This document shows, piece after piece, positions 28,341 to 63,312 of a stretch of DNA of 64,000 bases (its first letter is position 1; every line of letters begins with the position of its first letter). The notes beneath the pieces were generated by a model. The model saw nothing but the letters and a program-made list of their open reading frames with translations. It was not told the DNA's origin and ran no database searches. The stretch is from a virus. Both the position numbers and the translations under genes were made by a program. The stretch is from positions 1 through 64,000 of IMG/VR virus record IMGVR_UViG_3300031885_000005; one strand, given 5' to 3'.

Positions 28341-29054
28341 TTATTTTAATTTATTTTTAATTTCTTGTCTCAATTCTTCTTGATTAAATGTTTGAATTGA
28401 TAAAAGTTCAAACATTTTTTTATAATCTATTTTTTCGAAATTGGTTATGTTTGAATTCGGACTAACATTATAGATTTTTATATTTGGCTCTTTAAAATGC
28501 CCGAAATATTGAGATGGATTATGTCCAGTATAAGGGGCAGTATAATTCATTCCTCTATGATTAATTTCTTCTTTGGAATAGTAATGTATATTATTATCTT
28601 TTTTATTAATTGTACCCCAATCGAAACCTAAAAGAAAAATAACTCCTTTATAATCCAACAAAAATTGTGCCAAAGAAAGAGTATAGATTCCACTTAAAAA
28701 GTGGGTGTAAAAATCCCTCTTTAATGGATTGATATTGTATTCGCTTCCAGTTTTAATAAAAATAGTGTTAGATAACTGCCATTCTTTTAAATCATTTTTA
28801 TCATTGGCGTAGATTATTAGGAGTTCTTTTTTGAGTTCTTCATAAATATCTGGATGGTTCTTGCGGTTTTTTTTGGCTTGTAAGGGAACATAAAAATCGT
28901 GGTCTCCAAAAACAGTTAAAGTATGAGGGAAATGAAGAAAGGCATAATTTATGGCAAGGACACACTTTGTGGCTAAAAGTGGCTTTAAAGTGCCAAAATC
29001 GACCTGTTTTATACTACTTCCCCCACCAATAAGTATAATTTCATTAAAATTCAT
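28341..29054 (-). CDS. DUF115/MAF-like Rossmann protein, glycan-related
   Basis: A 237-residue protein closing the glycan cassette. It opens with a nucleotide-binding-type loop (IILIGGGSSIKQVD), then has VLAINYAFLHFP, a TVFGDHDFY motif and SGIYTLSLAQFLLDY...FLLGFDWG. This layout matches DUF115 (motility accessory factor-like) and CST-type sialyltransferase-like folds known in phage and capsule loci. It probably acts on a nonulosonate or similar sugar. It starts inside the end of the small zinc gene upstream. The exact substrate cannot be read. Confidence 0.55.
   Translation of the reverse strand: MNFNEIILIGGGSSIKQVDFGTLKPLLATKCVLAINYAFLHFPHTLTVFGDHDFYVPLQAKKNRKNHPDIYEELKKELLIIYANDKNDLKEWQLSNTIFIKTGSEYNINPLKRDFYTHFLSGIYTLSLAQFLLDYKGVIFLLGFDWGTINKKDNNIHYYSKEEINHRGMNYTAPYTGHNPSQYFGHFKEPNIKIYNVSPNSNITNFEKIDYKKMFELLSIQTFNQEELRQEIKNKLK
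28386..28421 (+). terminator. Possible terminator of the structural operon
   Basis: AAATGTTTGAA (28386-28396) and TTCAAACATTT (28407-28417) form an 11-base-pair stem with a ten-base loop, followed by a T-run. It lies inside the 3' end of the convergent minus gene, so coding sequence doubles as signal. The stem is AT-rich, so strength is uncertain. Confidence 0.45.
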
Positions 29055-29220
29055 TTTTACACCATTTACAGGTTTTTTTATTTTTATTTAAAAATTCAGG
29101 ATTGGGCATTTTTCTACCGCAATAAATACAGAGGCAATCATTACATGCCAATCCTCCACTTAATCCACAATAAGTAAGCCCATCTATTATTTTTTGGTGC
29201 ATACAGGCTTTATTCTTCAT
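29044..29220 (-). CDS. Cys-rich mini-protein of 58 residues
   Basis: Six or more cysteines in pairs (LACNDCLCIYCGRKMP, then CKWCKNEF) suggest one or two small zinc sites. It overlaps the gene on each side by 11 bases, so it is translationally coupled. Function unknown. Confidence 0.6.
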   Translation of the reverse strand: MKNKACMHQKIIDGLTYCGLSGGLACNDCLCIYCGRKMPNPEFLNKNKKTCKWCKNEF

Positions 29221-29374
29221 CTTTTACCTTAACTTTCCTTATTTCCCAATACTTTCGCCTAATTAATTCTCCATTCTCTAATCTAATATCCAAATCCTCA
29301 TCATAAATAATTTCTACTTTTCCTTCCTGTACAATTCCATTATGTTTGACTAAAACAGATTTACCTATATACAT
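29210..29374 (-). CDS. Small beta-rich protein of 54 residues
   Basis: A short protein (SVLVKHNGIVQEGKVEIIY, DIRLENGELIRRKYWEIRK) that looks like a small beta-barrel or SH3-like fold. It overlaps the deacetylase-like gene upstream by ten bases and the zinc mini-gene downstream by 11. Role unknown. Confidence 0.55.
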   Translation of the reverse strand: MYIGKSVLVKHNGIVQEGKVEIIYDEDLDIRLENGELIRRKYWEIRKVKVKDEE

Positions 29375-29946
29375 TGGTATATTTTAACTTTTAATATGGG
29401 TTTTTGATGCCAAGTCCAACAATTATATTTATCATAAATGTCTTGACATTGTTTGTAAAAATCCAAATCATTTATAAAGGTTCCTATTGATTTTTTAGGT
29501 AAAGAAGGATGAAATTTTTTAAAATCTCCACCTGAGAAATAAATATTAGAATACAGAAACTTAATTTTATTTTGAGTTAAAATTTTATTTACTAATATAT
29601 GGTCTAAGTTTTTATATTCTCCCCAGGGGTTATGAGAAAAAATAATATCATTTTTATTAACAAATTTTAATATTTCATTACTAAACTTTTTCAATCTGGA
29701 ATTGTTATTTTCTGCCCAACGATAAAATCGACTCCAATAATCCAAACAAATAATTTCCGCATCAATAAGTTTTCCGATTTCAAATAACGCAGTTTTCCTA
29801 TATTTCCATTGAGGGCAACAAGTATTAGTTAAATCAGATGAACAACAAATTATTTTTTTAGTATATGGTAATGCATACCAAAAAAAGATAACTTCATCAT
29901 CTGGATGCGAAATAACTATAGTTATATTTTTAGTTAAATTAATCAT
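29365..29946 (-). CDS. PIG-L/LmbE-type N-acetylglucosamine deacetylase-like
   Basis: A 193-residue protein with the metal-binding signature ISHPDDEVIFF at the start, and a later SHNPWGEYKNLDHI that supplies another expected His. The family removes acetyl groups from GlcNAc on lipids or small carriers. The ATG at 29946 forms an ATGA overlap with the glycosyltransferase stop, better than the longer start at 29958. It would deacetylate an amino sugar made in this cassette. The family call is strong; the substrate is inferred. Confidence 0.75.
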   Translation of the reverse strand: MINLTKNITIVISHPDDEVIFFWYALPYTKKIICCSSDLTNTCCPQWKYRKTALFEIGKLIDAEIICLDYWSRFYRWAENNNSRLKKFSNEILKFVNKNDIIFSHNPWGEYKNLDHILVNKILTQNKIKFLYSNIYFSGGDFKKFHPSLPKKSIGTFINDLDFYKQCQDIYDKYNCWTWHQKPILKVKIYQCI

Positions 29947-31955
29947 TTCTTTAACCATTCTTTATTTTTATATTTTTTATCATTTATTATTTGCTCCCAA
30001 GATTTCTTAGTATATTTTCGTAGATACAGAATTAAAGGTTTTGGAACTGTTATTATAATATTTTTATAATTATAATTTTTTATATGTTGAGAACGGTTTA
30101 TTTCTATTTCAATTTTAAAATCGGTATTTTTTAATAAATCTAAAATAATATTTTTATTTATTTCATTATTCGTTCCCAAATTTAAAAGAGGTTCAGTAAT
30201 TTCTTTTTTTTGAATAATATACAATAAAGTTTCTTTTGCTACCCAATAATAAAGTTTATTTTTGTTTAATATATTAAATAAGGATTCAATTTTTTCATTA
30301 TTATCAATAATAATTTTTGGATTTGTTTTTGCTTTATTTTCTAATAAATTTTGATATAGAGTTTCATAAAGGAATAGCAATTTTTCTGGAGTATAAAAGG
30401 TTTTTCTCCAATTTATTATTTTTTGTTGTGCTTTTTTTAATTCTTTTGGATTATTTATATAAAAATATAAAGTCGATTCCAAAGTTTCAATATTTGTTTT
30501 TATAAAAGGATAGTCTTCTCCACTATAACTGGTTAATGGAATTGCTCCGAAACATGTTGCTTCGAGAGAGGTACAATGAAATTCTTCAAAATTATTATTC
30601 ATATCATCAATTATAATATCGGCTTTTCTTTTTCTATTGAGATTTTCATCAAGAGGCTGTCCTTCTATTAAATCTATTTCAAACTTTAAAGTTGAGTCTT
30701 TTTTTAATTTTTCTAATATTTCTATTACTTCTTCTCTTTTTTTAGAACATAAAGGCATCCTATTTCCTAAATTTTTAATAGTAGGAGCAAAAACTATTAA
30801 TGGAACGGGATTGTCTTTGATTGTTGACTCTTCAAATAAAAATCTAATAATAGGAAGGGTATATGTTGACAATTTTTTATATATTTCTTTTTGTAAAGGT
30901 TGGTCAGCAACAGTAAGGAATGTACTATATTTTTTGACTTGGTTAAGATAAGTTTCATTATAAGATGAATGAATATCATATAAAGTAGTGATAACTATTT
31001 TATTTTTTAATAAAGGTTCAATTTCTTCAAAATAAAACCCATGATGAGCATGAATAATATCTGCTTTTTTTATAAGTTCTATACATTCATTCTTTTGTGT
31101 TTGCCAATAAAATTCATGAGGAAATTTACGAAAAGGAGCAACTGGACTATCGTTATATTCTTTTCCTAAAATATATACTGAGGTATAATTGTTAGAATAA
31201 GCGTTTATTAATTTTGATAATTCATAACCACAATTTGCACAAGGAACGGTGGCTAATTGAATTATTAATTTTTTATTTTTATTGGTATATTTTTTTCTCC
31301 ATTCATCATAATCAAGATTTTTTTTAGTTATATTTTGAAGACCATCGGAATGTTCTATTCTACAATAAAAACTTTCTGGAAAGAATAAAAAATTATAGTT
31401 TTTTTCTTTTGCTCTAATCCAAAACTCCCAATCGCTGTGGGAAATATTTTTATGCCCTCCAATATTTATCCAAATTTCTTTTTTGAATAAACAAGTTCCT
31501 GGAAGACAATTATTTTCTCTTAATTCTTCCAAAGTAAATTTTTCTTTTCCATAGTAATGCATGTCCAAATTAAATGAATCAATGTTTATTAATCTATGTG
31601 TAATTATATCTGCCTCTGGATGTTCTAAAATAAAATTTTTTAATTTTTTCCCCCAATTATTTTCAGGGGAGATATGAAAATCATCATCGTCTAAAAAAAT
31701 AATCCAATTGGATTTGCATTGAATAATTGCCCTATTTCTGGTTCTGGGCAATCCGAGATTATAATTATTTTTTAAAAATTTTATTCTCGGATATTGTTGC
31801 AATAATTCTTCTATTTTTTTAATATGAAAATCAGAAGAACCATCATCAATTACAATTATTTCATCAAAACCTTGATAATAAATAGAATTAATCGCTTTTT
31901 GTATTAAATGACTTCTATTAAATGTTGGAATAATCAAACAAATTGAATTGTTCAT
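29943..31955 (-). CDS. Bimodular glycosyltransferase (GT2 plus GT4-like)
   Basis: A 670-residue protein. Residues 1-220 are a GT2 fold: CLIIPTFNRSHLIQKAINS, VIDDGSSD, and FLDDDDFH as the metal-binding acids. Residues 230-540 look like a GT-B family transferase (IIQLATVPCANCGYELSKL, ADIIHAHHGFYFEEIEPL, then FHCTSLEATCFGAIPLTS as the donor-binding E-x7-E-like segment). A helical C-terminal part follows. The ATG at 31955 forms an ATGA overlap. Two transferases in one chain would add two sugars in turn to one acceptor; donor sugars unknown. Confidence 0.75.
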   Translation of the reverse strand: MNNSICLIIPTFNRSHLIQKAINSIYYQGFDEIIVIDDGSSDFHIKKIEELLQQYPRIKFLKNNYNLGLPRTRNRAIIQCKSNWIIFLDDDDFHISPENNWGKKLKNFILEHPEADIITHRLINIDSFNLDMHYYGKEKFTLEELRENNCLPGTCLFKKEIWINIGGHKNISHSDWEFWIRAKEKNYNFLFFPESFYCRIEHSDGLQNITKKNLDYDEWRKKYTNKNKKLIIQLATVPCANCGYELSKLINAYSNNYTSVYILGKEYNDSPVAPFRKFPHEFYWQTQKNECIELIKKADIIHAHHGFYFEEIEPLLKNKIVITTLYDIHSSYNETYLNQVKKYSTFLTVADQPLQKEIYKKLSTYTLPIIRFLFEESTIKDNPVPLIVFAPTIKNLGNRMPLCSKKREEVIEILEKLKKDSTLKFEIDLIEGQPLDENLNRKRKADIIIDDMNNNFEEFHCTSLEATCFGAIPLTSYSGEDYPFIKTNIETLESTLYFYINNPKELKKAQQKIINWRKTFYTPEKLLFLYETLYQNLLENKAKTNPKIIIDNNEKIESLFNILNKNKLYYWVAKETLLYIIQKKEITEPLLNLGTNNEINKNIILDLLKNTDFKIEIEINRSQHIKNYNYKNIIITVPKPLILYLRKYTKKSWEQIINDKKYKNKEWLKK

Positions 31956-33028
31956 TTTTTGGGTATCCATTCTCCCTGAGATGGTTCTCCTTGTTTTAAC
32001 ATTTTATAAAGTTCCTTTTTGGAAAGACAAATAGAAGAATCAAAAGTATTGAAAGTAATATTTTTCTTTGATTTTTTTCCAGGAGTAAGTATAAAAATTC
32101 TAAATTTTTTAGATTTACTCAAATATTTAGTATTAAATGGATAGACGGTTTCTTCTGTAAATGGAATTTCAGTATTTGAAATCAATTCTTCAACTATTTT
32201 TTCTCTCCCATCAATTCGTATTCCTATTGTTTTTGTTTTCACTTTATAAATTTTTGAAATGACATCTACTAAATCTCCCAAACAAAAAATAGGCATTTCT
32301 CTTGTAATTATTTGCCCTCCTTTTGAATTTAATAATGTCCACAAAAATAAATCTACCGCTTCAGACAATAATAAGGTATATCGTTTCATTTTTGGGTCTG
32401 TGATTTCTAATACTTTTTGTGATTTTGCTGTATCAATCCATATAGGTAAAATAGACCCATAACTACCAAGGAAATTTCCTCCCCTAACCAATGAAAATTT
32501 AGTTTTTATATTTCTTCCTTCTGCTCCTCGTTGGGCACCTATAAATATGTCTTCCATTGCTTTTTTAGTATTTCCATAAACATTAGAAGGATTAGTGGCT
32601 TTATCTGAACTTGCGGCAATCACATGTTCTATATTTCCATTTTGTAAAATTAATTCAGTTAAAATAGAAGTACCTCCTTGATTAATTTCAATTGCTTCTT
32701 TAGGGTGTTGTTGACATTCTTCAATTCGTTTCATCGCTGCTAAATGAAAAACAATATTTACATTTTCTAATGCTTTTTTAAGTTTATCTTTTTCTAATAT
32801 ACTCCCAGGAATATATTCAATTATCATTTTTTTTGATTTATTTTCAAATTCTTTTTTTGTTCTCGCTCGTTTATCCTCAGTTCGACTAAAAATAATTATT
32901 TTTTTTGGATTAAAACTCAATAATCTTTTAGTCAAAACTCTTCCCAAAGACCCAGTACCTCCAGTAATGAGAATTGTTTTATTTTTTAAAATAAGTTTTA
33001 ATTTTTGATTGAAGATTTTTCTTGTCAT
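31952..33028 (-). CDS. UDP-GlcNAc 4,6-dehydratase-like (PseB/CapD family)
   Basis: A 358-residue short-chain dehydrogenase-type enzyme. The NAD loop is TILITGGTGSLGRVLTKRL, then NIVFHLAAMKRIEECQQHP, and the active site set AASSDKATNPSNVYGNTK (Ser-Asp-Lys, Tyr-x3-Lys). This is the FlaA1/PseB/CapD-type signature; those enzymes start pseudaminic acid or rare-sugar pathways. The ATG at 33028 shares a base with the upstream stop. It would provide a modified amino sugar for the cassette. Family call strong, product inferred. Confidence 0.8.
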   Translation of the reverse strand: MTRKIFNQKLKLILKNKTILITGGTGSLGRVLTKRLLSFNPKKIIIFSRTEDKRARTKKEFENKSKKMIIEYIPGSILEKDKLKKALENVNIVFHLAAMKRIEECQQHPKEAIEINQGGTSILTELILQNGNIEHVIAASSDKATNPSNVYGNTKKAMEDIFIGAQRGAEGRNIKTKFSLVRGGNFLGSYGSILPIWIDTAKSQKVLEITDPKMKRYTLLLSEAVDLFLWTLLNSKGGQIITREMPIFCLGDLVDVISKIYKVKTKTIGIRIDGREKIVEELISNTEIPFTEETVYPFNTKYLSKSKKFRIFILTPGKKSKKNITFNTFDSSICLSKKELYKMLKQGEPSQGEWIPKK

Positions 33029-33597
33029 TATTTTAAATTTCTTTCCCAATTATTATAATCATTCGGTTTTTTAAAATTAGGATTAGGAATTTTCCAATTT
33101 TTGCCATATATACATTGCAAATATAATTCTGGATTATGAGGAACTAAAACTTTTAATCCCAAAAATTCTATTTCATCTAAAGTGTTAAGACATTCTTTTG
33201 GAAAATAAAAATATCCACACCATCCTCTATGATAATATTCGGTTTCAGTTTCTTCAAAAATCCAAAAATCAGTATTCCAATGAGCATATTTAGACCAAAA
33301 TTTAATCATATAAGGTCTATCTCCAAATTCTACTCTTTGTTTAAATGCTTTACATTCATATCCTTTAAATGTAAAATCTTGAACAGTTGTTAACTTTGCA
33401 ATTAATTCTTTCTGCGAATCTTTAGAAAATTCTTTTCTTAATATTCCGAAATCAAAATCGCAATCATGAGATAGAAAATCTTTTTCTCTAATAGCACCTA
33501 AAAGAGTACCTCCCTCTAAAAATATACGTAGATTCATTTCTTTTGTTACTTTTAGAGCAATTTCTAAGTCTTTTAATATTAAATGATGTTCCGCCAT
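33028..33597 (-). CDS. LicD/fukutin-type nucleotidyl-phosphotransferase
   Basis: A 189-residue protein with the LicD hallmark FLEGGTLLGAIREKDFLSHDCDFDFGI (Gly-rich loop and Asp pair), and a C-terminal PHNPELYLQCIYGKNWKIP. LicD enzymes move phosphocholine from CDP-choline; relatives fukutin and FKRP move ribitol-5-phosphate from CDP-ribitol. Its neighbour makes a CDP-ribitol-type donor, so ribitol-phosphate transfer is a coherent inference. GGAGAGAGATAAATG gives a good start. It is shorter than most LicD proteins, so it is a minimal catalytic unit. Confidence 0.75.
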   Translation of the reverse strand: MAEHHLILKDLEIALKVTKEMNLRIFLEGGTLLGAIREKDFLSHDCDFDFGILRKEFSKDSQKELIAKLTTVQDFTFKGYECKAFKQRVEFGDRPYMIKFWSKYAHWNTDFWIFEETETEYYHRGWCGYFYFPKECLNTLDEIEFLGLKVLVPHNPELYLQCIYGKNWKIPNPNFKKPNDYNNWERNLK

Positions 33598-34313
33598 TTA
33601 TCTCTCTCCATTCTAAAATAATTCCACTTTTTATAAAGTATTTCTTGGCATTGGCGTAATGTTTTGGGATTTCTTCTAATAATCGAATAATTGGAAGGTC
33701 TCAATCCATAAGAATAATGATTCGATAATAGTTCTTTATCATAAATTATATCCCATTTATCTAATTCTTTTAATTGAAGGAAAAAATCAAGATGTTCCAT
33801 TAATTTTAATCTTTCATCCCATTGAATGTCATTAAATAATTCTCTTCTTGCTACAAAGAAATTTAATACTAAATCTATTTTTTTAGAATTTTTAAGATAT
33901 AAAATTTGATTTTTAATTTCTAAGGCATATTCGTAATGTTGTTCTATGTCATTTTTTGCTTTATTAATACAACATCCCCCTATGATACCTAATTTTGAAT
34001 TTTCATTAAAATGATAAAGAATTTCATTAGGATTAGAAATTAATTCTATGTCATCATCAGCAACCAATACAAAAGGTTCTGTAACTTTTTCTACTAAGAA
34101 TTTTCTTGCTCCAGGGATTCCAAAATCTTTTGAAATACAATAAATATGATTTCCTCGATTTTCTAATTCTTTATAAAATCGTTTTTTTGTTAAAGTTATT
34201 TCTCCTTGGTCAAGTAGATAAGTAGTAATATTTTTATCAAGATGAGAACTAACACATTTCATCATCATTTCATCCCGTTTTATTGTTGTTACTATTATTG
34301 CTATTTTATTCAT
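33579..34313 (-). CDS. GT2-type glycosyltransferase
   Basis: A 244-residue protein with a GT-A start (IAIIVTTIKRDEMMMKCV) and the acids EPFVLVADDDIELI, a D-x-D type metal site. The fold continues with NFFVARRELFNDIQWDERL, which fits GT2 transferases. It overlaps the synthase by eight bases and the LicD-like gene by 19. It likely adds one sugar in the same chain; its donor is unknown. Confidence 0.75.
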   Translation of the reverse strand: MNKIAIIVTTIKRDEMMMKCVSSHLDKNITTYLLDQGEITLTKKRFYKELENRGNHIYCISKDFGIPGARKFLVEKVTEPFVLVADDDIELISNPNEILYHFNENSKLGIIGGCCINKAKNDIEQHYEYALEIKNQILYLKNSKKIDLVLNFFVARRELFNDIQWDERLKLMEHLDFFLQLKELDKWDIIYDKELLSNHYSYGLRPSNYSIIRRNPKTLRQCQEILYKKWNYFRMERDKWRNII

Positions 34314-35580
34314 ATAATCCTTTTCTTACATGAATTATTTTTCCGAATTCTTTGGTATCAGAATAAGACAGAATCATATCAGTTACTTTTTGAGGAGTTA
34401 ATGATTCTTGTTTATTGATTTTTGTTTTTAATTTTTTCCAAAAGGGGGTAATAACCTTTTCAGGGCATATACAATTGAGATAAATCTCTTTTTTGGCAAG
34501 TTCTTCTGCCTGACTCTCAACCAAACTATGTAAGGCACTTTTTGATGCAGAATAAATAGTAAACCCAAATCTTCCTTTTGTTGCGGAAGAAGAACTAATT
34601 ACAACTATATTAATGGGTCTATCGTGATATTTTCTTATTTTTTTTGCACTTTCTATTAATAATACATTAGCACGAAAATTTACATTCATCATTTCTTCAT
34701 AATGAGATAATAAGGAATCTTCATTTTTATAAGGAATTCCTGCACAATTTATGATTATATCGAGACCGCAATATTTATTAATTAAAGAATCGGAGAAATT
34801 TTCTGACAGATTTAATTCTCTATGAGAAGGAGTCCATATTTGATTGGGATTATATAACAACAGACTTTTATAGGTCGCACTTCCTATTCCTCCAGAAGAA
34901 CCTAATAATAGAATATTTTTATTTTTTAAGTCAGGAATACGAGGAGTATATTCATCATATTTTATCAAATGTTCTAATATAAAGAGGTCATAAGGATAGG
35001 TAATCTTATTATTGGCATGATTTAATTTTATGAAATTAATTTTTGGATTTTTTAATTGTTGATAAATAGCATCAGTATGATTGAAAATATTTATTTCTTT
35101 ATAAAGTTTATCAAATTTTACTACATCAGGAGATTGTATTAATTTATATTTATTTCTATCAGTATCATCAAATAAAGCATCTGTTATTGGTTCGTAAGTA
35201 ACAACGCAATCAAATCCTTTAAGTGCTTCCAAATATTGTGGCAAATCTTCTGCATTAATTAAAGGTCTTACCGCATCTTGAAAAAATACGGTATCTGAAT
35301 TATATTTCTTGATAAATTTTAATGCATTATAAATGGTTTGAGTACGAGTTTTCCCCCCTTTTATTATTTTAATTAAATTTTTATCATAATTTTTGAATAA
35401 ATATTTATATCTTAAATCATTTACTACTATAATTATTTTACTAAAGAGATTGGATTTAATATATTCATCCAATATATAGTGGATTACAATTTTACCGTTG
35501 AGTTTTATGTACTGTTTGGGTATAGAACTACCATATCTTTGACCAGTTCCACCTGCTAAAATAATGCCGATATTATTCAT
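34306..35580 (-). CDS. Fused CDP-ribitol pyrophosphorylase and SDR reductase (Bcs1-like)
   Basis: A 424-residue two-domain enzyme. The N-terminal 225 residues are an IspD/TarI-type cytidylyltransferase (IGIILAGGTGQRYGSSIPKQY, GGKTRTQTIYNAL, QDAVRPLIN, QSPDVVKF). The C-terminal part is a short-chain reductase (NILLLGSSGGIGSATYKSL, INCAGIPY, VVISSSSATKGR, YSASKSALH). The same order occurs in Haemophilus Bcs1, which reduces ribulose-5-phosphate and makes CDP-ribitol. The domain order and motifs support this; CDP-ribitol as product is inferred, since related fusions could make another CDP-polyol. Confidence 0.8.
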   Translation of the reverse strand: MNNIGIILAGGTGQRYGSSIPKQYIKLNGKIVIHYILDEYIKSNLFSKIIIVVNDLRYKYLFKNYDKNLIKIIKGGKTRTQTIYNALKFIKKYNSDTVFFQDAVRPLINAEDLPQYLEALKGFDCVVTYEPITDALFDDTDRNKYKLIQSPDVVKFDKLYKEINIFNHTDAIYQQLKNPKINFIKLNHANNKITYPYDLFILEHLIKYDEYTPRIPDLKNKNILLLGSSGGIGSATYKSLLLYNPNQIWTPSHRELNLSENFSDSLINKYCGLDIIINCAGIPYKNEDSLLSHYEEMMNVNFRANVLLIESAKKIRKYHDRPINIVVISSSSATKGRFGFTIYSASKSALHSLVESQAEELAKKEIYLNCICPEKVITPFWKKLKTKINKQESLTPQKVTDMILSYSDTKEFGKIIHVRKGLYE

Positions 35581-36450: not shown

Positions 36451-36899
36451 TTTATTTCTATTAATTTATAATTTTCAAGTTCAAAATATATTCTTCTTAT
36501 TTCTAAGGTAAGAACATTTACATAAGTCCAAAACCAAGATAAACTATTTCTTTTTTGAAAATTTTTAGGTCTTTTTATATATCGTATTTTATAATAATCA
36601 TAGGGAGTTTTTACTATCCAAATTAACCCAAAAGGAGATTCTACTTCTTTAGATTCAATCAATCCTTCGGGGCAAACTATACATAAAGAAGAACAAAACT
36701 GAGAATATTCAGTCCATTTTGTATCTTTTTGAAAATCTGGTTTTTTTGTTTTGATTTCAAATCCTCTAATCCATTTATGACCAGTATCAATAATTATTGC
36801 ATCAATTCTTAAATTTCCATGAGTAAATTCAGGAATAAAAATATTCCCATATCGAGCCAAATTTTGTTTTAAAATTTTCTTTATTTCTGAAGATGTCAT
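36447..36899 (-). CDS. MmcB-like PD-(D/E)XK protein
   Basis: The frame is open further upstream, but the ATG at 36899 forms an ATGA overlap with the transporter gene, giving 150 residues. The core RIDAIIID...GFEIKTKKPDFQKDTKWTEYSQFC and VCPEGLI follows the MmcB pattern, a nuclease-like fold tied to DNA repair (D then E-x-K). A role in DNA turnover or repair is inferred. A family call by motif resemblance, moderate. Confidence 0.55.
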   Translation of the reverse strand: MTSSEIKKILKQNLARYGNIFIPEFTHGNLRIDAIIIDTGHKWIRGFEIKTKKPDFQKDTKWTEYSQFCSSLCIVCPEGLIESKEVESPFGLIWIVKTPYDYYKIRYIKRPKNFQKRNSLSWFWTYVNVLTLEIRRIYFELENYKLIEIK

Positions 36900-38155
36900 T
36901 TTATCTCCAATTTTTTGATTAATGGAAGGCATAAGAAAGAAGTCAATGCCGAGATTATAATTAATAGGTGTAATCCTATTTTTGGAAATAAAAAAGCTCC
37001 AGATAATGAAGAACAAGTTCCAGCAAGATTATTTATGCTGCAAAGTAAGGCGAAAGAAGTGGCTTCTTTGCCTGTGATTGTACTTTTAGCCATCCATGCC
37101 ATTACATTTAAGAAAATAAACATTCCTACTAAACTAAATATTATTCCATAAACTATTGCAGTAACTGGAGTGAAGTAAAGATAACATAGAGTAGTGAAAG
37201 CTCCAATAAAAACTGAATAGAATAGACATTTTTTGATATTTATTTTCTTTCCAAATTTCCAATATAAAACAGACCCAATAATACTTATACCCGAAGTAAT
37301 TGCTCCTAAAATACCCATAAATGTTCCCGACCAATGAAATGAATCTCTTTCTATAAAAAATAAGGGTGTACCAAATGAGGGATTAAAATTATAAAGAAAT
37401 AAAAATAAACAACCAATTAAGAATTTTTTATTAGTAAACAGGTCTTTGTATGAACAAATTGTTTCTAAAATACGAACTTTTTTTTCAGGAAATCGAGGTT
37501 GAAATCCTTCACAAATTCCAATTTCATTATTATCACATTCTAAAGAAAATTTACAATCTATACAAGATTCTTCTGTACTATGTTTTAGTACAGTTGTTCT
37601 ATAACGTAGTACAATACCTACAATAATCAAGTAGAAAGGAATCAAACATAAATACCCAAATTGATAATTAAAATGGTCAGCAACATAACCTCCAATAAGA
37701 CCTGCAACGATTCCTGCTATTGTGATACTCGTCCATTGGATACTTTGAATTCTACCACATTCATTTGCTTCTTTGCCTTCCACACACATAATCCCATCTA
37801 CCGCCACATCTCTTACTGCGGTAGTCCAACTTCCTACTGAAGCTAATAAGATAATAATAGGTAAAGCAAGAAAAGGACTTAATCCTAAATAAAGACAAGT
37901 TATTAAACTTCCCAAAAGAGATATTAGAATCCATTTTTTCTTTGTTAAATAATTGTCGCACAAATATCCCCACAATGGTTTTATCAACCACGCAAGACCT
38001 GTAATTGACCCCAAATACATTATAGTCGAAGGATTAAGATGTAATTTTTCTTTTAAATAAAATGTCAAAGCTAATCCAGGCAATCCCTCTATTCCTTGAG
38101 TGAAATAGACAGAAGAACTAAGTACAAAAATCCAAAATAGTTTATTCTTTTTCAT
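36896..38155 (-). CDS. MFS transporter of the BT1 folate/biopterin type
   Basis: A 419-residue protein with about 12 hydrophobic spans and the BT1-type opening SSSVYFTQGIEGLPGLAL, then SITGLAWLIKPLWGYLCDNYL and DVAVDGIMCVEGKEANECG. Members carry folates or biopterin, and some are known only as putative transporters. A central cytoplasmic loop holds an unusual Cys cluster (CIDCKFSLECDNN, GICEGF). It starts inside a small gene and ends in the MmcB-like gene. Transport of a pterin, folate or other small molecule during infection is inferred; a phage gene of this kind is rare. Confidence 0.8.
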   Translation of the reverse strand: MKKNKLFWIFVLSSSVYFTQGIEGLPGLALTFYLKEKLHLNPSTIMYLGSITGLAWLIKPLWGYLCDNYLTKKKWILISLLGSLITCLYLGLSPFLALPIIILLASVGSWTTAVRDVAVDGIMCVEGKEANECGRIQSIQWTSITIAGIVAGLIGGYVADHFNYQFGYLCLIPFYLIIVGIVLRYRTTVLKHSTEESCIDCKFSLECDNNEIGICEGFQPRFPEKKVRILETICSYKDLFTNKKFLIGCLFLFLYNFNPSFGTPLFFIERDSFHWSGTFMGILGAITSGISIIGSVLYWKFGKKINIKKCLFYSVFIGAFTTLCYLYFTPVTAIVYGIIFSLVGMFIFLNVMAWMAKSTITGKEATSFALLCSINNLAGTCSSLSGAFLFPKIGLHLLIIISALTSFLCLPLIKKLEIK

Positions 38156-38333
38156 TTTTCTTTCTTAAATAATATCCAATTGCTTTACTTAAATTTTCCT
38201 TTATCTGTTCATTTATTGCATCATAAATTTCTATAGGAGAATATCCTAAATTAATTAAATCCTCATAAATAAATTTTAAATTAGGTTGTTTGCCAAGAAT
38301 TATATTTAATTTAATGTATTCGGTTATGTTCAT
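38142..38333 (-). CDS. Small helical protein of 63 residues
   Basis: The ATG at 38333 shares TGATG-type coupling with the membrane peptide upstream; a longer start at 38375 is less likely. Helices (EYIKLNIILGKQPN, LGYSPIEIYDAINEQIKENL) recall a small DNA-binding or regulator-like fold but no family is clear. It lies between the peptide and the transporter. Confidence 0.5.
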   Translation of the reverse strand: MNITEYIKLNIILGKQPNLKFIYEDLINLGYSPIEIYDAINEQIKENLSKAIGYYLRKKNEKE

Positions 38334-38428
38334 TCTTTCATTTCCTTTATTAATAATAAAAAAGCAAGTATCCATAATATTAATCGATATGACAAATAAA
38401 GACCTAAAAGAATTAAAATTAGTTTCAT
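38330..38428 (-). CDS. Hydrophobic 32-residue peptide next to M16 and S2P genes
   Basis: Starts inside the end of the M16 gene and ends inside the start of the next. The peptide is almost one hydrophobic helix (LILILLGLYLSYRLILWILA) with a charged end (IKEMKE). Its place beside two intramembrane-type and peptide proteases makes it a candidate substrate, which is inference. Confidence 0.5.
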   Translation of the reverse strand: MKLILILLGLYLSYRLILWILAFLLLIKEMKE

Positions 38429-39576
38429 TTTGGTATAACTCCCACTAAAATATTGTTATTAAATTTCATTTCTTTTATGAAATCATTAACTTTTTTTATT
38501 GCGTGATTCAAATTTTTCTTATAATTAACAATAAAATCTTCATAATCGGTTCCATTAATCAATGAATTTGCTACCATATTAGTTAAATTATCTATTTTAT
38601 CTAAATCCATTTCTTGAATTCCAATGGTTTTATTTAATAGGATTTTTTCATCTTTTTTTGAAATTGGTTTTATTAATTCTTTAATTATTAAATCTCTCGC
38701 TTTATTTATTTTATTCGTATCTAATCCAGCAGAAACCATCCATTGAATAGTTCCATTACTATGATAATTCCAATCAAAATGAACCCGATAAACTAAATTA
38801 TTTTTTTCCCTAAGAGAATCAAATAATCTACCACTCATATCTCCATAAAGAGCATCTAAAAGCATTAAACAGAACATCTGTTCTGTTTTATTTCGGGAAA
38901 GTTTAACGGAATTTCCTACCAAAATGTTTGCCTGAGTCAAATTATCTCTTTTTATTAAAGTCTTATCTTTATAAATTGCCAATTCTGAAGGAATGTATTT
39001 TATATCGTAAGGGTGTCTTATATTAACTTTATCCATTACATCGCCAACTATAATCAATGTCGGGTTGTTGTATTTTTCTTTATAATAATTTATTAAAGTA
39101 TCTCGGTCAATATTATGAAGAGTTTCTTTAGTTCCGACTATGGGCAGATAAAATCCAGATTGTTTGGCATAAAGAGTTTTATTAAATACTTCATAAACAT
39201 AATCTTTGGCATCGTCTTCGTACATTTTTAATTCTTGAATAATTACTTCTCTTTCTTTATCTATTTCTTTATCAGGAAATAAAGGTTTAGTTGCCAAATC
39301 AGTTATGACCTCTATTGCCAAGTCTTTATAAGAATTTCCTACTTTTGCCCAATATGCGGTAAGTTCTAAATCAGTAAAGGCATTTAAATCTCCTCCAACA
39401 TTATCTATGGCTGAACTTATCTGTTTTTGATTTCTTTTTGGATTACCTTTAAAAGACATGTGTTCCACAAAATGAGAAATTCCCTTATATGAATCTATTT
39501 CATTAAAAGAACCAGCATTTATTACAACCATAACCAAAGTGGTTTTTCCTGGTTTTTTGATTTGTATAAGATTCAT
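38425..39576 (-). CDS. M16-family zinc metallopeptidase
   Basis: A 383-residue enzyme with the inverted zinc motif HFVEH at residues 35-39 after YKGIS, and a downstream EREVIIQELKMYEDD that supplies the third ligand Glu. The fold continues in M16 style (LYAKQSGFYLPIVGTKETL, then YKEKYNNPTLIIVGDV, and SGRLFDSLREKNNLVYRV). The family cuts short peptides such as signal or pheromone-like pieces, and M16 proteins act in some peptide-maturation clusters. The ATG at 39576 shares a base with the upstream stop. A phage M16 peptidase is unusual. Confidence 0.85.
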   Translation of the reverse strand: MNLIQIKKPGKTTLVMVVINAGSFNEIDSYKGISHFVEHMSFKGNPKRNQKQISSAIDNVGGDLNAFTDLELTAYWAKVGNSYKDLAIEVITDLATKPLFPDKEIDKEREVIIQELKMYEDDAKDYVYEVFNKTLYAKQSGFYLPIVGTKETLHNIDRDTLINYYKEKYNNPTLIIVGDVMDKVNIRHPYDIKYIPSELAIYKDKTLIKRDNLTQANILVGNSVKLSRNKTEQMFCLMLLDALYGDMSGRLFDSLREKNNLVYRVHFDWNYHSNGTIQWMVSAGLDTNKINKARDLIIKELIKPISKKDEKILLNKTIGIQEMDLDKIDNLTNMVANSLINGTDYEDFIVNYKKNLNHAIKKVNDFIKEMKFNNNILVGVIPK

Positions 39577-40178
39577 TATAGTATTCCTTTCCACAATAAC
39601 ATAAATAAATAAGGTAAATATATAATATTTATTGTCATTAAAATTACAAATCCTATTTTACATATTTTATTCATTATTTCATAACCTTTTTCTTTTCCGT
39701 AAATTTTTTCTAACCAGACTAAAATAGGATAACTTCCGTCAAGACAGGGCAGGGGCAACAAATTCGTTATTCCTAAAGATAAGGCAATCGCCCCAAAATA
39801 AAATATATCGAAATTCATCAATTTTAAACCAATAATATAAAATATGATTCCAAATATAATATTTGCCGAACAACCTGCAATTGCAGTTAATAGTTTTTTA
39901 TAATAACGAAGATTGGAAAAGGCTTCTTTATCCGAACTTGTAATTAATTCATCACGAAGTTTGCAATAACCGCCCAATAAAATAGGAGCAATTTGATAAA
40001 TAGTACCTTTATATTCTTTTCTATAAAAAGGTTTTCCGAATCCAATGGAGAATATATCGACTCCACATTTTAATTTTTTGGCGACTAATAAATGTCCTAA
40101 TTCATGGACAAAAATATTTATTATGATACAAATTAAAAATCTCAAAAAATGTTGTAAAAAGAATATATAATTATTCAT
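39576..40178 (-). CDS. Site-2 protease (M50) family membrane protease
   Basis: A 200-residue membrane protein with HELGH at residues 25-29 inside a hydrophobic span and LPLPCLDGSYPIL later, the two S2P metal sites. A GFGKPFYR...GGYCKL segment lies between them. S2P enzymes cut transmembrane peptides, anti-sigma factors and, in Gram-positive bacteria, pheromone precursors. It has no PDZ domain, so it is a minimal form. It begins right after the deformylase stop. Family assignment strong; target unknown. Confidence 0.85.
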   Translation of the reverse strand: MNNYIFFLQHFLRFLICIIINIFVHELGHLLVAKKLKCGVDIFSIGFGKPFYRKEYKGTIYQIAPILLGGYCKLRDELITSSDKEAFSNLRYYKKLLTAIAGCSANIIFGIIFYIIGLKLMNFDIFYFGAIALSLGITNLLPLPCLDGSYPILVWLEKIYGKEKGYEIMNKICKIGFVILMTINIIYLPYLFMLLWKGIL

Positions 40179-40814
40179 TTATTTTGATTTATGTTTTCTT
40201 TCAAAAAGAGTGATTCCTGCCAAGTGGTCGTACTCATGCTGAATCACTAAAGATTCTAAGTCTTGCGCCAATAAAGTATGCTCTTTGAAATTTTCATCTA
40301 CATAATAAAGTGTAATATAGACATATCTTTCTGTATCGACTCTAATTCCAGGCAGACTAAGACATCCCTCGTTTTTATTAATTATTTTAGTTTCTTTTTC
40401 TACTATTTTTGGATTGATTAGAAGAAGTTCTTTTATCTCTATTTTTTTATTTTTTTGGTCAAAATAAGGAACTCTAATATAACAAACAGATTTATTATAT
40501 CCTATTTGATTGGCGGACAACCCCAGGGCTTTTGAACTAAATTTATTTAAAGTTTCTTTTAATTCAATAATAATTTGTTTAACATCTTCTCCTTTTTCTA
40601 CAGGAAGGCAAGGTTTCCTTAATTCATTTATGTTAGTAACGATAGGAAGTTTAGGTTTTTCTTCTTTTATTAGAATAGGTTTATAATCTTTCTCTTGCAT
40701 CTTTTTAAGGATTTCTCTTTCTGATTTTGTTAAGTAACCATTTTCTTGTCTAACTTTTTGTTCAGCAAGATAAATATCAAATTCAGTTTGGTCTTTAAAT
40801 TGATTTTTTAACAT
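40179..40814 (-). CDS. def: Peptide deformylase
   Basis: All three active-site motifs are present: GLSANQIGYN, EGCLSLPGIR and QHEYDHLAG. The enzyme removes the formyl group from new N-terminal Met, using Fe or Zn held by Cys and two His. The 211 residues include an N-terminal extension of about 50 residues. GGAGGAAAG lies before the start. Phage deformylases are known in several genomes, notably cyanophages, where they may hasten turnover of host membrane proteins. Its meaning here is tied to the two proteases next to it. Confidence 0.9.
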   Translation of the reverse strand: MLKNQFKDQTEFDIYLAEQKVRQENGYLTKSEREILKKMQEKDYKPILIKEEKPKLPIVTNINELRKPCLPVEKGEDVKQIIIELKETLNKFSSKALGLSANQIGYNKSVCYIRVPYFDQKNKKIEIKELLLINPKIVEKETKIINKNEGCLSLPGIRVDTERYVYITLYYVDENFKEHTLLAQDLESLVIQHEYDHLAGITLFERKHKSK

Positions 40815-48949: not shown

Positions 48950-50313
48950 CTCTCTTCCTCCTTATCTGTCTTTCTATCTTCCTCTCTCTTAGGAATTATT
49001 GTATTTTTTATTCTTTCTTGTGCGATTTTAAGATAATCTTCTGATAATTCTATGCCTATAAATCTACGATTAAGTAATTTGCAAGCAACTCCAGTAGTTC
49101 CCGAACCCATAAATGGGTCAAGAATAATGTCTCCCTTTTTGCTTCCTAAAGTAATAAGATAAGACATTAATTTTATAGGTTTAACTGTAGGATGGAAATT
49201 ACTTCTTTTTTCTCTTGGTTTTTCAGTTCCTTTATTAATTGCACCTACTAATCCTGCTGGTTGGCAATCTTTCTCTTCTAAATTTTCACATCCTTTATTT
49301 TTCTCACTCTTACTTGCTTTTGGGCAAATTAAAAAAGGAAAAGTATTATAATCTTCGGAAATATTATTTTCTTTAGCCCAAGCATCTAAATCAAAATAAC
49401 GAGAAAAAGAACCAGAATCATTATAAGTTTGTCCTGCTGGTTTTCCAGTAGATTTTTGCCAAATCCCACCCGAAGCAGATTTATCATCTTTAGATTTATT
49501 TGATGTTCTTTCTTTTCCATCATTTAATATATCATCAGAAACTAATAAATTAGCAGGAAAACGAGAATTTTTTTCTGTTTGTGAAATAGTAGTTATTTTT
49601 TTCCCACTGCCAAATTGATTTCCATGTATTTCTGAAAAATCATTAAAATTGGCAATTACTTTATCAGAAGTAGGAATCCTACAATCATCTAAATTAGTAA
49701 TTCCTTTATTATTTTTTAATGCTTGGTCAATATATCCTTTTTCTGATAATGATTTCATAACTACAATTATTATTTCTACTGCTGGCTTGGGTTGAAATCC
49801 GCCAAAAGAACCTTTTAATTGTTTGGCTTCTTCGCTTTCTGGTTCAGTAATAGAATACTCGCCTTTCCATTCATAATTGTCATCATCATGAACTCCTAAA
49901 TGATTATTTACTTTTTCTCCTGTATGTCCTTTTGCTTTACCTACTTCTTTTCCTTTTAATCCTTTTCTTTTATCTATTGCTTTGGAAATGTTTATTGCCT
50001 TGGGAAATCCGCTTGCATAAGCCCAATAAATAGAAGTAAATCCTGTTTCAAATCCTGCTTCTTGTAAATTATAAATCATTCTTCCTAATACATCTTGTCT
50101 TGGAGCTGACATAATAAAAGCAAATGCTCCAGGCTTTAATACTCTCAAACATTCTTTCCAAGTAGAAGAAGGAATAACTACTTTATCCCAATCCTTACCC
50201 ATAAAAGAATAGCCATAAGGGGGGTCAGTTAAAATAAGGTCAATAGAATTATCTTCTATTCCTTTTAATACTTCTTTACAATCTCCTAAATATAATTGAA
50301 TTTGTTTATCCAT
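48946..50313 (-). CDS. DNA methyltransferase, N4/N6-type with DPPY motif
   Basis: A 455-residue enzyme (start at the ATG at 50313; a GTG at 50322 is possible). Motif IV LILTDPPYGYSFMGKDW is near the start and the AdoMet motif DPFMGSGTTGVACKLLN near the end, the beta-class order. The middle is a target-recognition region of about 230 residues. It may protect phage DNA from host restriction. No cognate restriction nuclease is visible next to it. A second methyltransferase lies at 62663. Confidence 0.85.
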   Translation of the reverse strand: MDKQIQLYLGDCKEVLKGIEDNSIDLILTDPPYGYSFMGKDWDKVVIPSSTWKECLRVLKPGAFAFIMSAPRQDVLGRMIYNLQEAGFETGFTSIYWAYASGFPKAINISKAIDKRKGLKGKEVGKAKGHTGEKVNNHLGVHDDDNYEWKGEYSITEPESEEAKQLKGSFGGFQPKPAVEIIIVVMKSLSEKGYIDQALKNNKGITNLDDCRIPTSDKVIANFNDFSEIHGNQFGSGKKITTISQTEKNSRFPANLLVSDDILNDGKERTSNKSKDDKSASGGIWQKSTGKPAGQTYNDSGSFSRYFDLDAWAKENNISEDYNTFPFLICPKASKSEKNKGCENLEEKDCQPAGLVGAINKGTEKPREKRSNFHPTVKPIKLMSYLITLGSKKGDIILDPFMGSGTTGVACKLLNRRFIGIELSEDYLKIAQERIKNTIIPKREEDRKTDKEEER

Positions 50314-50314
50314 T

Positions 50315-53300
50315 TTATTCACTATAATAAGGTTTAAGTTCTTTTTCTTCTATAAAATCTTTTTCAGTAAAAGTAGGTTGAGATTTAATTATTGGAATTT
50401 CTTGTTCGGGTATTTCTTTCTTTTTACGTTCTTTTTTGGGTTTAGTTATTATTCCAATTTTTTCTTTATCCCATCTTAATGCATCAAAAATTTTTTCTGA
50501 AATATCTAAAATATTTCTTTTAATCATCATATCATAATCTACTTCGATTATTTGATTTTGAGTTTCCTCATCATAAGCGAGTACATTTTTTTCTATTATT
50601 GTGTGGGATTCTTTTAATTCTTTTTTTCCAGTTTCTTTATTTTTTCTCATTGATTTAGCATGTCTTTCTGCTTGTCCAAAAGATTTAACATAACAGTAAT
50701 AAAAAGTTTCTCCCGAATTTTTTTCTATTCCAAACAATTTCTTAGAATAATCCAAGGCTCTTAAAAAGATGGGAGGACTTTTATAGTCCTGTATATTATT
50801 TATTTTAGAAGGAAATCCTATTTCAATTATAGGAACTTTCTTAATTGTTTCTTTTTGTGAAGCAATAAATTCAATAATCGCTTCTTGAGATTCGTTATTA
50901 AGAACTTTTTCTATTAATTCTTCTTGAAATTTTTTCATAAAAATAGAACTATTCCTTCTCTTTACTTCAACCCCTTTAATTTCTTTTTTAATTCCTGTAG
51001 GAGTTTTTAAATAACCAATGTAATGGCAAAGGGCTACCACTAATAATCTATCAAATATACCTTCAGTTTCAAATTCTATTCCTAAATTATCTTTATTATA
51101 TTTTTCTTTAGCCCATTGATTTACTAACTGATTTAATAAATTGGTTGGGTCTTCTTTAGTTTGACAAAAAATACTGTCAGTATCTAAATAGGTAACTTTT
51201 ATTTCTTGTTCTTGTAATTTATTTTCTACATAATGGAGTAAATCTCTTACTATACTCGTAATTGCAGAAGCTATTCGAACATCATATAATCGGAATACTT
51301 TCAGAGCAGTTACTCCAAAAAGGCTATTTGTAAGTGCCTTGATTGCTTCATATTTTATCTGTAAATCTTTTGCTTCTTCACTTTCTGGGTCTAAAGATTT
51401 AAGTTGCTTTTTTAATATATCTTTTTTGATGATTAATTTTTTTGCAATTATGGGAAGTAAAGTATTTGGATTTTGCTTAACATAAATAGAATATTTTACT
51501 TCATTAGTTTCTCGGTCAGTTATATCTATTTTCTGTTCATTTTTATTTTCGGTAAGATTAGCAATATCTAAACAAAAATTAATAATGGCTTGGGGATAGG
51601 CACTACTTAAATCGAGTTTATAGACTTGTTCAAAACGACCAAGTTCTGCTCTTCTGTAAGCTCCTTCAAATTCTTTACCCTCCTCTATTATAATATCTTC
51701 CGCATATTTTTTTGAAGGAAGTACTATACCCATTTTTTTTGCCTCAGTTAAAAGCATTACATCAAGTACTTTTGAATTTCCACTTAATACTATTCGTTCC
51801 TTGTATCTTATTAAAAAATTGTGATATTCGTTTTCTATGCACCAAATTTTACCTTCATATTGAATCTCTTTTTTAGCATGATAACGAAATAATTTAAGTG
51901 GTTTTTTTACAATATTTCCTTCATAATATGTAAATCCGTTTTTAATTCTTTTATGTGTACTGACATTCCATCCAGCTAAAATACATAATAATTGAAATTG
52001 GTCGAGTAATTCTTTATTTTTAGAATAATAACAACCACTATTCTTGGTTTGCCAATGCCCATCCCCTTTCATCATTGTTTCTATTAATAATCTTTTTTGT
52101 TGAATAGATAATTCATAAACAAAAATCGGTAATTCTTTTTCATTATTTAATAATTGCTTATATAAACTTGTATCTCTTGCCCTAATACGAAAATTAATAC
52201 ATTTATTTTTTTTGTGGATATATTTAGAATATCCTAAATTTTCTTGATTTAATAATTCCTCTATTTCATTCGCTTTCTTTCCTTTATTTTGATAAATAGA
52301 AATACCCTTCAATTGTTTTTCAAAATGTCCTTCAGAAACTATCCAACCAATAAGTTTTATTTGATTGTCAGTTAGTTGATTAAATTTTCCCTCATAACCT
52401 TCAGAACCCACAAAGAAATATCTATCATCTCTATCAGGTATAGAATCTATAGTATTTTCTTCTAATTTGAGTTTATTACGTTCAGGTCTATTATAAGTCA
52501 TTAAAAATTTATGATTTGGAGTAACACAAAAATTAATTCGTTCATTATCATAATTTATCATTATTCCTTTATAATCATAAATAAATAGATTTTTAATTTT
52601 TGATAATTCTAATTGTAAAGTTTTCGGATTCATGGAATAAACTCTATCCGATTTTTTTATTTCATTATATTTCTTCCAACCATTTTTTGTGAGAAGTTCT
52701 GTTTGTTCATCAAGACAATGCCAAGTCAAATCCTCCCAAATACATTTCCCCATTCTGCGAATTTCGTCATAATAGGAGATTATCTTTTTTTGGTTTTCGA
52801 TTTCAATCATATCTTTTATATCTTCAATATTTTTTTCTTTAATTTCTTCAGTAATTTGGCTAAAATCTACTTTCTTTTTTGGAGGTTTTCCCAAATACTT
52901 TTGAGCAATAGAATCTAAAGCATAGGATACTTCTTTATTATAAATTTTTTTAAATAAATCCAAATAATCTAATATACTAATACCTTGAGGATAAGGAATT
53001 TCATCCTCTTTTCTTCCATAGCGACATTTTTGAATCGGACTAATTAATTCTGCTAAATTTAATGACCATAATTTTTTTATTCTCATTGCAAGATAAGGAT
53101 AATCAAATGCTATAAAATTCCACCCCAGCAAAATATCTGGTTGCTCATCTTTTATATATTTAATAAAATCTTTTAACAATTTATCTTCAAGTTCATTCCA
53201 ATCTTTAACAGCAATTCTTGGGTCAACATAATCTTTTAAATAAAATGTTTTGATTTCTTTAGATAAAGAATTATAAATACTAATACAGGTAATTGGTTGA

Positions 53301-53698
53301 TTAGGATAGAGATAATTGGGTATTCCTCCCTTTGTTTGGATTTCAATATCAATAAAAATATATTTGATTGGAGATTTAATAATTTCCCCTACCTTATCAC
53401 ACAAATATCGTTTCGTAAACAAAACATCTGCTTCGTAGGAATTTTCGTCTCTTTTGCGAGAAACTTCTGAAGGCAATTTACAAAATACTTTATTTACTTT
53501 TTTTCCGTTAATAGTTCTAAAAATTCCTGTCGAAGATTCTTGATAAAAATAAGGCATAAAATTCTTATCCCTAAACTGAACCAATTGCCCATCGGGTTGG
53601 CGATTAAAGAGGACAATTTCTCTCCCCAAATTACTTATATTCTGAATCGGAAAATTTAAAATATGTCCTCCAATTTTAATAAATGAAAAGGTCTCCAA
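50315..53698 (-). CDS. Family B DNA polymerase, intein-containing
   Basis: A 1127-residue precursor; 813 residues remain after removal of an intein. The proofreading exonuclease has YIFIDIEI (115-120) and GWNFIAFDYPYL (192-203). The polymerase core has KLDLSSAYPQ (about 695-702), KALTNSLFGV and TYLDTDSIF, the A, B and C motifs. It starts at a TTG with GGAAGAG seven bases upstream and overlaps the receiver-like gene by 43 bases. The C-terminal 60 residues are basic then acidic. It should be the replicative enzyme of the phage. Confidence 0.9.
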   Translation of the reverse strand: METFSFIKIGGHILNFPIQNISNLGREIVLFNRQPDGQLVQFRDKNFMPYFYQESSTGIFRTINGKKVNKVFCKLPSEVSRKRDENSYEADVLFTKRYLCDKVGEIIKSPIKYIFIDIEIQTKGGIPNYLYPNQPITCISIYNSLSKEIKTFYLKDYVDPRIAVKDWNELEDKLLKDFIKYIKDEQPDILLGWNFIAFDYPYLAMRIKKLWSLNLAELISPIQKCRYGRKEDEIPYPQGISILDYLDLFKKIYNKEVSYALDSIAQKYLGKPPKKKVDFSQITEEIKEKNIEDIKDMIEIENQKKIISYYDEIRRMGKCIWEDLTWHCLDEQTELLTKNGWKKYNEIKKSDRVYSMNPKTLQLELSKIKNLFIYDYKGIMINYDNERINFCVTPNHKFLMTYNRPERNKLKLEENTIDSIPDRDDRYFFVGSEGYEGKFNQLTDNQIKLIGWIVSEGHFEKQLKGISIYQNKGKKANEIEELLNQENLGYSKYIHKKNKCINFRIRARDTSLYKQLLNNEKELPIFVYELSIQQKRLLIETMMKGDGHWQTKNSGCYYSKNKELLDQFQLLCILAGWNVSTHKRIKNGFTYYEGNIVKKPLKLFRYHAKKEIQYEGKIWCIENEYHNFLIRYKERIVLSGNSKVLDVMLLTEAKKMGIVLPSKKYAEDIIIEEGKEFEGAYRRAELGRFEQVYKLDLSSAYPQAIINFCLDIANLTENKNEQKIDITDRETNEVKYSIYVKQNPNTLLPIIAKKLIIKKDILKKQLKSLDPESEEAKDLQIKYEAIKALTNSLFGVTALKVFRLYDVRIASAITSIVRDLLHYVENKLQEQEIKVTYLDTDSIFCQTKEDPTNLLNQLVNQWAKEKYNKDNLGIEFETEGIFDRLLVVALCHYIGYLKTPTGIKKEIKGVEVKRRNSSIFMKKFQEELIEKVLNNESQEAIIEFIASQKETIKKVPIIEIGFPSKINNIQDYKSPPIFLRALDYSKKLFGIEKNSGETFYYCYVKSFGQAERHAKSMRKNKETGKKELKESHTIIEKNVLAYDEETQNQIIEVDYDMMIKRNILDISEKIFDALRWDKEKIGIITKPKKERKKKEIPEQEIPIIKSQPTFTEKDFIEEKELKPYYSE
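51776..52717 (-). other. Intein in the DNA polymerase (314 residues)
   Basis: The insertion begins with Cys328 (CLDEQTELLTKNGW, block A) and ends at Asn641 before Ser642. Block B is CVTPNHKFLM; a LAGLIDADG-type nuclease lies in LIGWIVSEGHF and LLIETMMKGDGHW; block F is EYHNFLIRYKERI and block G is RIVLSGN. The penultimate residue is Gly rather than the usual His. Removal would join TWH to SKVLDVMLL, restoring a polymerase core. The homing domain suggests it can spread. Confidence 0.85.
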
Positions 53699-54024
53699 AT
53701 TGCATCTCTTCCGTTGTCTAATAAATAATTCATCATTCTATTTGCACCCACAAAATTCATAGAATGAATATAACACAATGCTTGCTTTTGACTTTCATTA
53801 TCAATCAACCATTTTACAAATGTGTAACCTGTATTTTCTTCATTAGAATCCACCCAAAGTTGATTTCCGAGGTCGTGGTCTAATAGCATTGTTTGAAAAT
53901 CATTTAATAAACATGCTTCTTTAGCTGCGTTTACAGTTTCACAAATAAATAATTCTTGATTCCTCAATAATTGTTTGAATTTTTCTATACGGATAGGATT
54001 ATCTTCTAATATAAGAATTTTCAT
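53656..54024 (-). CDS. Cyclic-phosphate-processing receiver-like protein
   Basis: A 122-residue receiver-style protein (MKILILEDNPIRIEKF, then QTMLLDHDLGNQLW and ENTGYTFVKWLID). It resembles the cyclic-phosphate-processing receiver family, predicted to act on RNA cyclic phosphates or nucleotide repair products. Its true start is at 54024. It precedes the polymerase and overlaps it. The receiver fold is clear; the family assignment is by resemblance. Confidence 0.55.
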   Translation of the reverse strand: MKILILEDNPIRIEKFKQLLRNQELFICETVNAAKEACLLNDFQTMLLDHDLGNQLWVDSNEENTGYTFVKWLIDNESQKQALCYIHSMNFVGANRMMNYLLDNGRDAIWRPFHLLKLEDIF

Positions 54025-55947: not shown

Positions 55948-55948
55948 T

Positions 55949-63196: not shown

Positions 63197-63312
63197 TCTT
63201 CCCTTCCACAAAGATTACACTTATAAATATCGTAACCATCAGAAGTAACACTCGCTATTTTCATTTCTTCTCCGCAACAACAACGATAATTTATTTCCGT
63301 ATTAATTTTCAT
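63193..63312 (-). CDS. Cys-rich mini-protein, 39 residues
   Basis: YRCCCGEEMKIAS and YKCNLCGREE give two pairs for a ribbon. TGATG overlap with the methyltransferase. Function unknown. Confidence 0.5.
   Translation of the reverse strand: MKINTEINYRCCCGEEMKIASVTSDGYDIYKCNLCGREE

Follow-up and report, generated by a model that had tools for sequence, protein, structure and literature searches.

Results

Organization of the cassette

The window analysed here is a 64,000-nt stretch of DNA, bases 1-64000 of a 77,567-bp IMG/VR virus record. A cassette of seven ORFs is located at 28341-35580 on the minus strand, and all seven were present at the coordinates claimed in an earlier sequence-only reading. 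The plus-strand structural-type genes end at 28337 and the cassette meets them end to end, at a distance of 3 bp. From 28341 to the far end, most genes lie on the minus strand, the replication genes (PolB, RecA-like, prim-pol) being further along; the cassette is the final part of this block and shares the strand of the replication genes, opposite to that of the structural genes. Six of the genes overlap by 8-22 nt. The PIG-L gene is joined to the last gene through two small overlapping minus-strand ORFs (29044-29220 and 29210-29374). The promoter and terminator scans gave nothing beyond chance.

Every domain named in the sequence-only reading was searched with Pfam, PHROGs and NCBIfam profiles, and the matches were clear for the fusion, dehydratase and LicD proteins and, in the bimodular protein, for the GT2 half. 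That reading had named missing active-site residues in the SDR, the cytidylyltransferase or the LicD-like protein as evidence against it; the motifs were found in all three. As a whole the observation was confirmed, and two details differ, namely the label of the last gene and the start of the dehydratase gene.

The cytidylyltransferase-SDR fusion

The gene at 34306-35580 (minus strand) encodes an IspD/TarI-type cytidylyltransferase fused to a short-chain dehydrogenase (SDR), with Pfam matches to PF01128 (IspD, 2e-22) and PF00106 (adh_short, 7e-23). The cytidylyltransferase motifs GGxGxR, PKQ, D102 and K192 and the SDR motifs GxSGGIG, N278, S330, Y343 and K347 were detected. The architecture is that of Bcs1: a cytidylyltransferase domain (GxGxR, PKQ, D, K) followed by an SDR (GxxxGxG, N, S-Y-K). 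The protein aligned with bacterial fusions over the full length. The closest of these, among the matches listed, belong to uncultured Clostridia MAGs (36-41% identity), and the identity with the wider bacterial fusion clade was about 25-32%.

In the tree, for which the tree tool issued a long-branch warning, the two phage fusions, that of the window and that of the relative phage described below, were sister to the Clostridia fusions with a support of 100/100. The phage fusion was not placed within the Proteobacterial/Bacteroidota clade, which includes a Pasteurellaceae member, and a very long branch lies between them. The large clade far from the phage fusions comprises Bacteroidota, Pseudomonadota and others. 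The proposed Bcs1-like fusion held for the domain order and catalytic motifs and failed for the grouping with this clade. Compared with the classic clade, 66 of 122 conserved columns differ, some of them near the SDR active site; the fusion-family motifs SSSxTxGR and PExxTP are retained in all three groups compared. A profile of the phage cytidylyltransferase domains alone scored IspD and ribitol-phosphate cytidylyltransferase structures alike and did not separate them. With the fusion-SDR profile, a generic SDR scored nearly as high as the phage SDR (68 vs 86 bits), which, like the differences from the classic clade, weighs against ribitol specificity.

Fusions of this type synthesise CDP-ribitol in Hib (PMC10299916). 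The phage protein is probably a bifunctional CDP-alditol (CDP-ribitol-type) synthase, and ribitol would be the likeliest of several alditols.

The LicD protein and its proposed pairing with the fusion

The product of 33028-33597 (minus strand) is assigned to the LicD/fukutin family as a predicted LicD/FKRP-type alditol-phosphate transferase: it matched PF04991 with 51.2 bits (cutoff 22.6) and carries the metal motif DxDxD as DCDFD. The profile match to the catalytic domain of human FKRP (6kaj) had an E value of 1.2e-5 with the three aspartates aligned, and hhalign against the bacterial LicD set gave a probability of 98.8 over residues 11-59. FKTN and FKRP, two LicD-domain enzymes, are ribitol-phosphate transferases, and proteins with this domain work with CDP conjugates (PMC4873967).

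A LicD gene was found within 5 kb of the bacterial fusion in 31 of 79 loci (directly adjacent in 25 of them), a count somewhat biased upwards since most of the seed sequences of the profile came from loci of this kind; the more distant flanks (338 kb) contained 2 LicD matches. The order GT2 - cytidylyltransferase/SDR - LicD - GT occurs in a P. distasonis polysaccharide locus. The nearest bacterial fusions, among the matches listed, reside in polysaccharide-type loci, and the neighbourhoods of the Clostridia fusions include additional stand-alone cytidylyltransferases.

The clustering of LicD genes beside the bacterial fusions supports the pairing of synthase and transferase. Together with the literature on the Hib fusion and on FKTN/FKRP, the alignment of the phage LicD protein with FKRP makes it well supported that the cassette encodes a putative CDP-alditol synthase plus an alditol-phosphate transferase. 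The CDP-ribitol pairing proposed earlier was upheld in this respect; ribitol itself is the inferred part of it, as the fusion lies outside the classic clade and the cytidylyltransferase profile does not discriminate.

The other genes of the cassette

The gene at 31952-33049 (minus strand) encodes a UDP-GlcNAc 4,6-dehydratase-like SDR of the PseB/FlaA1/CapE superfamily (PF02719, 4.9e-63). The match to PseB (TIGR03589) reached 211 bits, under its cutoff of 408, and the FnlA score was also below its cutoff, so the assignment extends to the wider PF02719 family only. The protein matched the CapE and FlaA1 structures and carries SSDK and YGNTK motifs. ATG 33028 is a more likely translation start than TTG 33049, because the ATG overlaps the stop codon of the LicD gene.

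Two glycosyltransferase genes, one of them bimodular, were recovered as described earlier. The product of 33579-34313 (minus strand) is GT2-type with a DDD motif, and its PF00535 match was just under the cutoff (2.5e-4, 21.5 bits vs 23.3). The bimodular protein (29943-31970, minus strand) has an N-terminal GT2 (PF00535, 1.5e-24, residues 12-150) and a second module at about residues 230-545, for which neither a family match nor a convincing PDB match was obtained in Pfam, PHROGs, NCBIfam and PDB searches. Its C-terminal ~120 aa perhaps resemble a degenerate LicD, a likeness too weak to rely on. The AlphaFold model of the second module (pLDDT 39) was too poor for use.

The gene at 29365-29958 (minus strand) probably encodes an accessory PIG-L-type deacetylase, as judged from the motifs HPDDE and LDH and a PF02585 match of 24.8 bits (cutoff 28.2). 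The last gene, 28341-29054 (minus strand), had been labelled DUF115-like, a label which was replaced: no Pfam match was found even at E 10 and no PDB match, and the sole significant match was to PHROG 4603 (phrog_4603), 'alpha-2,3-sialyltransferase' (4.2e-8, residues 9-217). The protein is possibly a glycosyltransferase. Its AlphaFold model was also set aside (pLDDT 36).

A simple hydropathy scan predicted no membrane segments for the cassette proteins of the window; the neighbouring transporter and protease genes do have such segments. In the relative phage, the sialyltransferase-like protein has one segment above the simple hydropathy threshold. Flippase, initiating phosphoglycosyltransferase, polymerase and ligase families were not detected among the genes scanned. 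On the hydropathy scan, the cassette contains neither the membrane flippase nor the membrane-bound glycosyltransferases of Gtr-type serotype conversion.

Conservation in a relative phage

One divergent relative, G001 (IMGVR_UViG_3300032069_000005, 86,231 bp), was found, and most of the genome order is common to both phages. Five of the seven cassette genes are kept whole in G001, with identities of 77% for the fusion, 56% for the GT2, 62% for LicD, 75% for the dehydratase and 55% for the sialyltransferase-like gene; the second GT module is also kept (62-71% conserved), and the order and place are unchanged. The other proteins of G001 have about 40-80% identity to those of the window phage. The N-terminal GT2 of the bimodular protein is not conserved, as G001 has there a 220-aa ORF of no significant similarity, and the PIG-L gene has no match in G001. 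The GT module of G001 is interrupted by an intein with a LAGLIDADG domain (L002 12276-14837; G001 49119-51680) at a conserved site, EFHCT|S; there is no intein in the copy of the window.

The dN/dS values between the two phages were about 0.11 (fusion), 0.18 (dehydratase), 0.19 (sialyltransferase-like), 0.24 (GT2) and 0.26 (LicD), with the dS between the phages being high and partly saturated; for the fusion, dN was 0.15 and dS 1.44. With values of about 0.1-0.26, the cassette genes for which the ratio was computed are under purifying selection and look maintained for function.

The genes next to the cassette at 36896-40814 (minus strand), consecutively a BT1/AmpG-type MFS transporter, an M16 peptidase, an M50 peptidase and a polypeptide deformylase, are all kept in G001, where the transporter is split into two ORFs. 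Elsewhere on the minus strand of the window, a family B DNA polymerase with intein/LAGLIDADG signals (50315-53698), a cREC_REC receiver-type domain (53656-54024), a protein with one Multiubiquitin domain (55276-55968; PF14452, E 5e-16) lacking a match in G001, and an MT-A70 methyltransferase (62663-63211) were observed. In the rest of the record, trypsin-like peptidase, M14 carboxypeptidase and amidoligase genes are consecutive on the minus strand (L004 3868-6439, record 66867-69438). The gene at L004 14006-14551 (record 77005-77550, minus strand) encodes the catalytic domain of a tyrosine recombinase, in which ARKEE, HLLRH, GH and Y motifs were recognised, and the G001 copy is longer.

Distribution among viruses

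Neither the DNA search of the cassette region nor the search with the portal-like protein gave a match in 50,697 phage records. The full-length fusion was found in no other viral contig or phage record searched apart from G001. The viral contig scans with the fusion, LicD, the sialyltransferase-like protein and the dehydratase, whose short peptide patterns may overlook distant relatives, likewise detected the cassette in G001 only. The first scan of genome contigs yielded no relative, and the second one, with a four-sequence alignment as the query, gave bacterial fusions. The matches to 'Staphylococcus' and 'Listeria' phages were set aside as partial hits to unannotated records, perhaps bacterial DNA. 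The portal-like protein had two weak partial matches among 398 genomes of the phylum of the Clostridia MAG.

Discussion

In the pathway that we propose, reduction of a ketopentose 5-phosphate (ribulose 5-phosphate being the likeliest) by the fused SDR would yield the alditol phosphate, which the fused cytidylyltransferase would convert with CTP to the CDP-alditol, most likely CDP-ribitol. The glycosyltransferases would assemble a short glycan, for which the dehydratase would supply a 4-keto-6-deoxy sugar as one of the building blocks; the pathway of the window phage may also include de-N-acetylation of a sugar by the PIG-L protein. The alditol phosphate would then be moved from the CDP donor onto the glycan by the LicD protein, in the manner of FKTN/FKRP and the LicD proteins of bacteria. 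The acceptor would most likely be a structural protein of the phage that receives its sugar chain in the cytoplasm and displays it on the virion. We infer the substrates, the order of the steps and the acceptor, and this self-contained cytoplasmic pathway as a whole is put forward at somewhat less than even confidence. The modified amino sugars suggested earlier would depend on the dehydratase, which is conserved although its scores are under the cutoffs for PseB and FnlA, and on the PIG-L protein, which is missing from the relative.

The lack of predicted membrane segments in the window cassette, and of any export or polymerisation family in the genes scanned, leans towards a cytoplasmic acceptor, e.g. 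a virion protein. The end-to-end position of the cassette beside the structural-gene block also speaks for this, and its location on the strand of the replication genes speaks against it. Peripheral glycosyltransferases and LicD proteins can also act on envelope precursors that are lipid-linked and are translocated by flippases of the host. The target might instead be a surface polymer of the host (a precursor of teichoic acid, capsule or O-antigen), which the enzymes would modify at the cytoplasmic face; its export by the host machinery would alter the phage receptor and exclude other phages. The known homologues of every core enzyme work in envelope polymer synthesis, the loci of the nearest listed bacterial fusions are of the polysaccharide type, and the tyrosine recombinase gene (77005-77550) leaves a temperate life style possible. 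Phage serotype-conversion cassettes generally do include export and membrane components, unlike the cassette described here, in which flippase, initiating transferase, polymerase, ligase and membrane-bound glycosyltransferase are all missing from the genes scanned. Modification of a host polymer is a serious contender, although on balance doubtful; virion decoration is slightly favoured and the change of the host envelope is almost as likely.

A separate question, compatible with either acceptor, concerns the substrate. The fusion could make another CDP-alditol (e.g. arabinitol or xylitol) or use another ketose phosphate, with the LicD protein adapted to it. The very long branch and the many differences shared by the phage and Clostridia clade relative to the Proteobacterial/Bacteroidota clade speak for this; in contrast, SSSxTxGR and PExxTP are kept in all three groups and the divergence may be general drift, and we consider another alditol unlikely. 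Placement of the glycan on phage DNA or a modified nucleotide is highly improbable. Phage glycosyltransferases do hypermodify DNA in work cited in PMC12619734, but the genes scanned included none of the base-modifying families (thymidylate synthase, dCMP hydroxymethylase and the like) and the LicD substrates in known cases are not nucleic acids.

Virion decoration with alditol phosphate remains the reading that we slightly prefer. Glycosylation by phages, either of themselves or of their hosts, has precedents, and elsewhere alditol-phosphate chemistry of this kind has been described for capsules and wall polymers of bacteria and for human dystroglycan. The literature and phage records searched contained no phage that combines making a CDP-activated sugar alcohol with transferring it. 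The present phage, for which the collections searched contain no close relatives, maintains under selection a small enzyme set for the probable synthesis of an activated sugar alcohol (most likely CDP-ribitol) and the transfer of its phosphate to a custom sugar chain. It is possible, at less than even odds, that phages of this lineage synthesise their own CDP-alditol and attach a glycan bearing alditol phosphate to their virion proteins, a viral parallel to the ribitol-phosphate glycans of dystroglycan. If true, the cassette would offer a compact toolkit of short enzymes, apparently soluble, for ribitol-phosphate glycan chemistry, including a small FKRP-like transferase, and a testable example of a phage surface coat.

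Compared with known systems, the fusion resembles Bcs1/Acs1 of the Haemophilus capsule in the N-terminal cytidylyltransferase, the C-terminal SDR, the catalytic motifs and PExxTP, and differs in being phage-encoded, in grouping with the Clostridia fusions and in having no Bcs3-type polymerase nearby. The phage LicD protein shares the GGTLLGxxR...DxDxD core with LicD/FKTN/FKRP and its C-terminal half also aligns to FKRP, but it is very short (189 aa) and without a membrane anchor. The dehydratase has the Polysacc_synt_2 fold family and the SSDK and YxxxK motifs in common with PseB/FlaA1/CapE/FnlA, whereas its scores are below the curated PseB and FnlA cutoffs and the cassette has no downstream PseC/FnlB-type genes. 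In mycobacteriophage virion glycosylation, phage glycosyltransferases act on virion proteins, and no CDP-alditol branch is described in that work as cited in PMC12619734, in contrast to the present cassette. The Vibrio phages MG592415 and OX241562 likewise carry a LicD gene, but with no cytidylyltransferase, dehydratase or annotated glycosyltransferase within about 6 kb, unlike the cassette described here.
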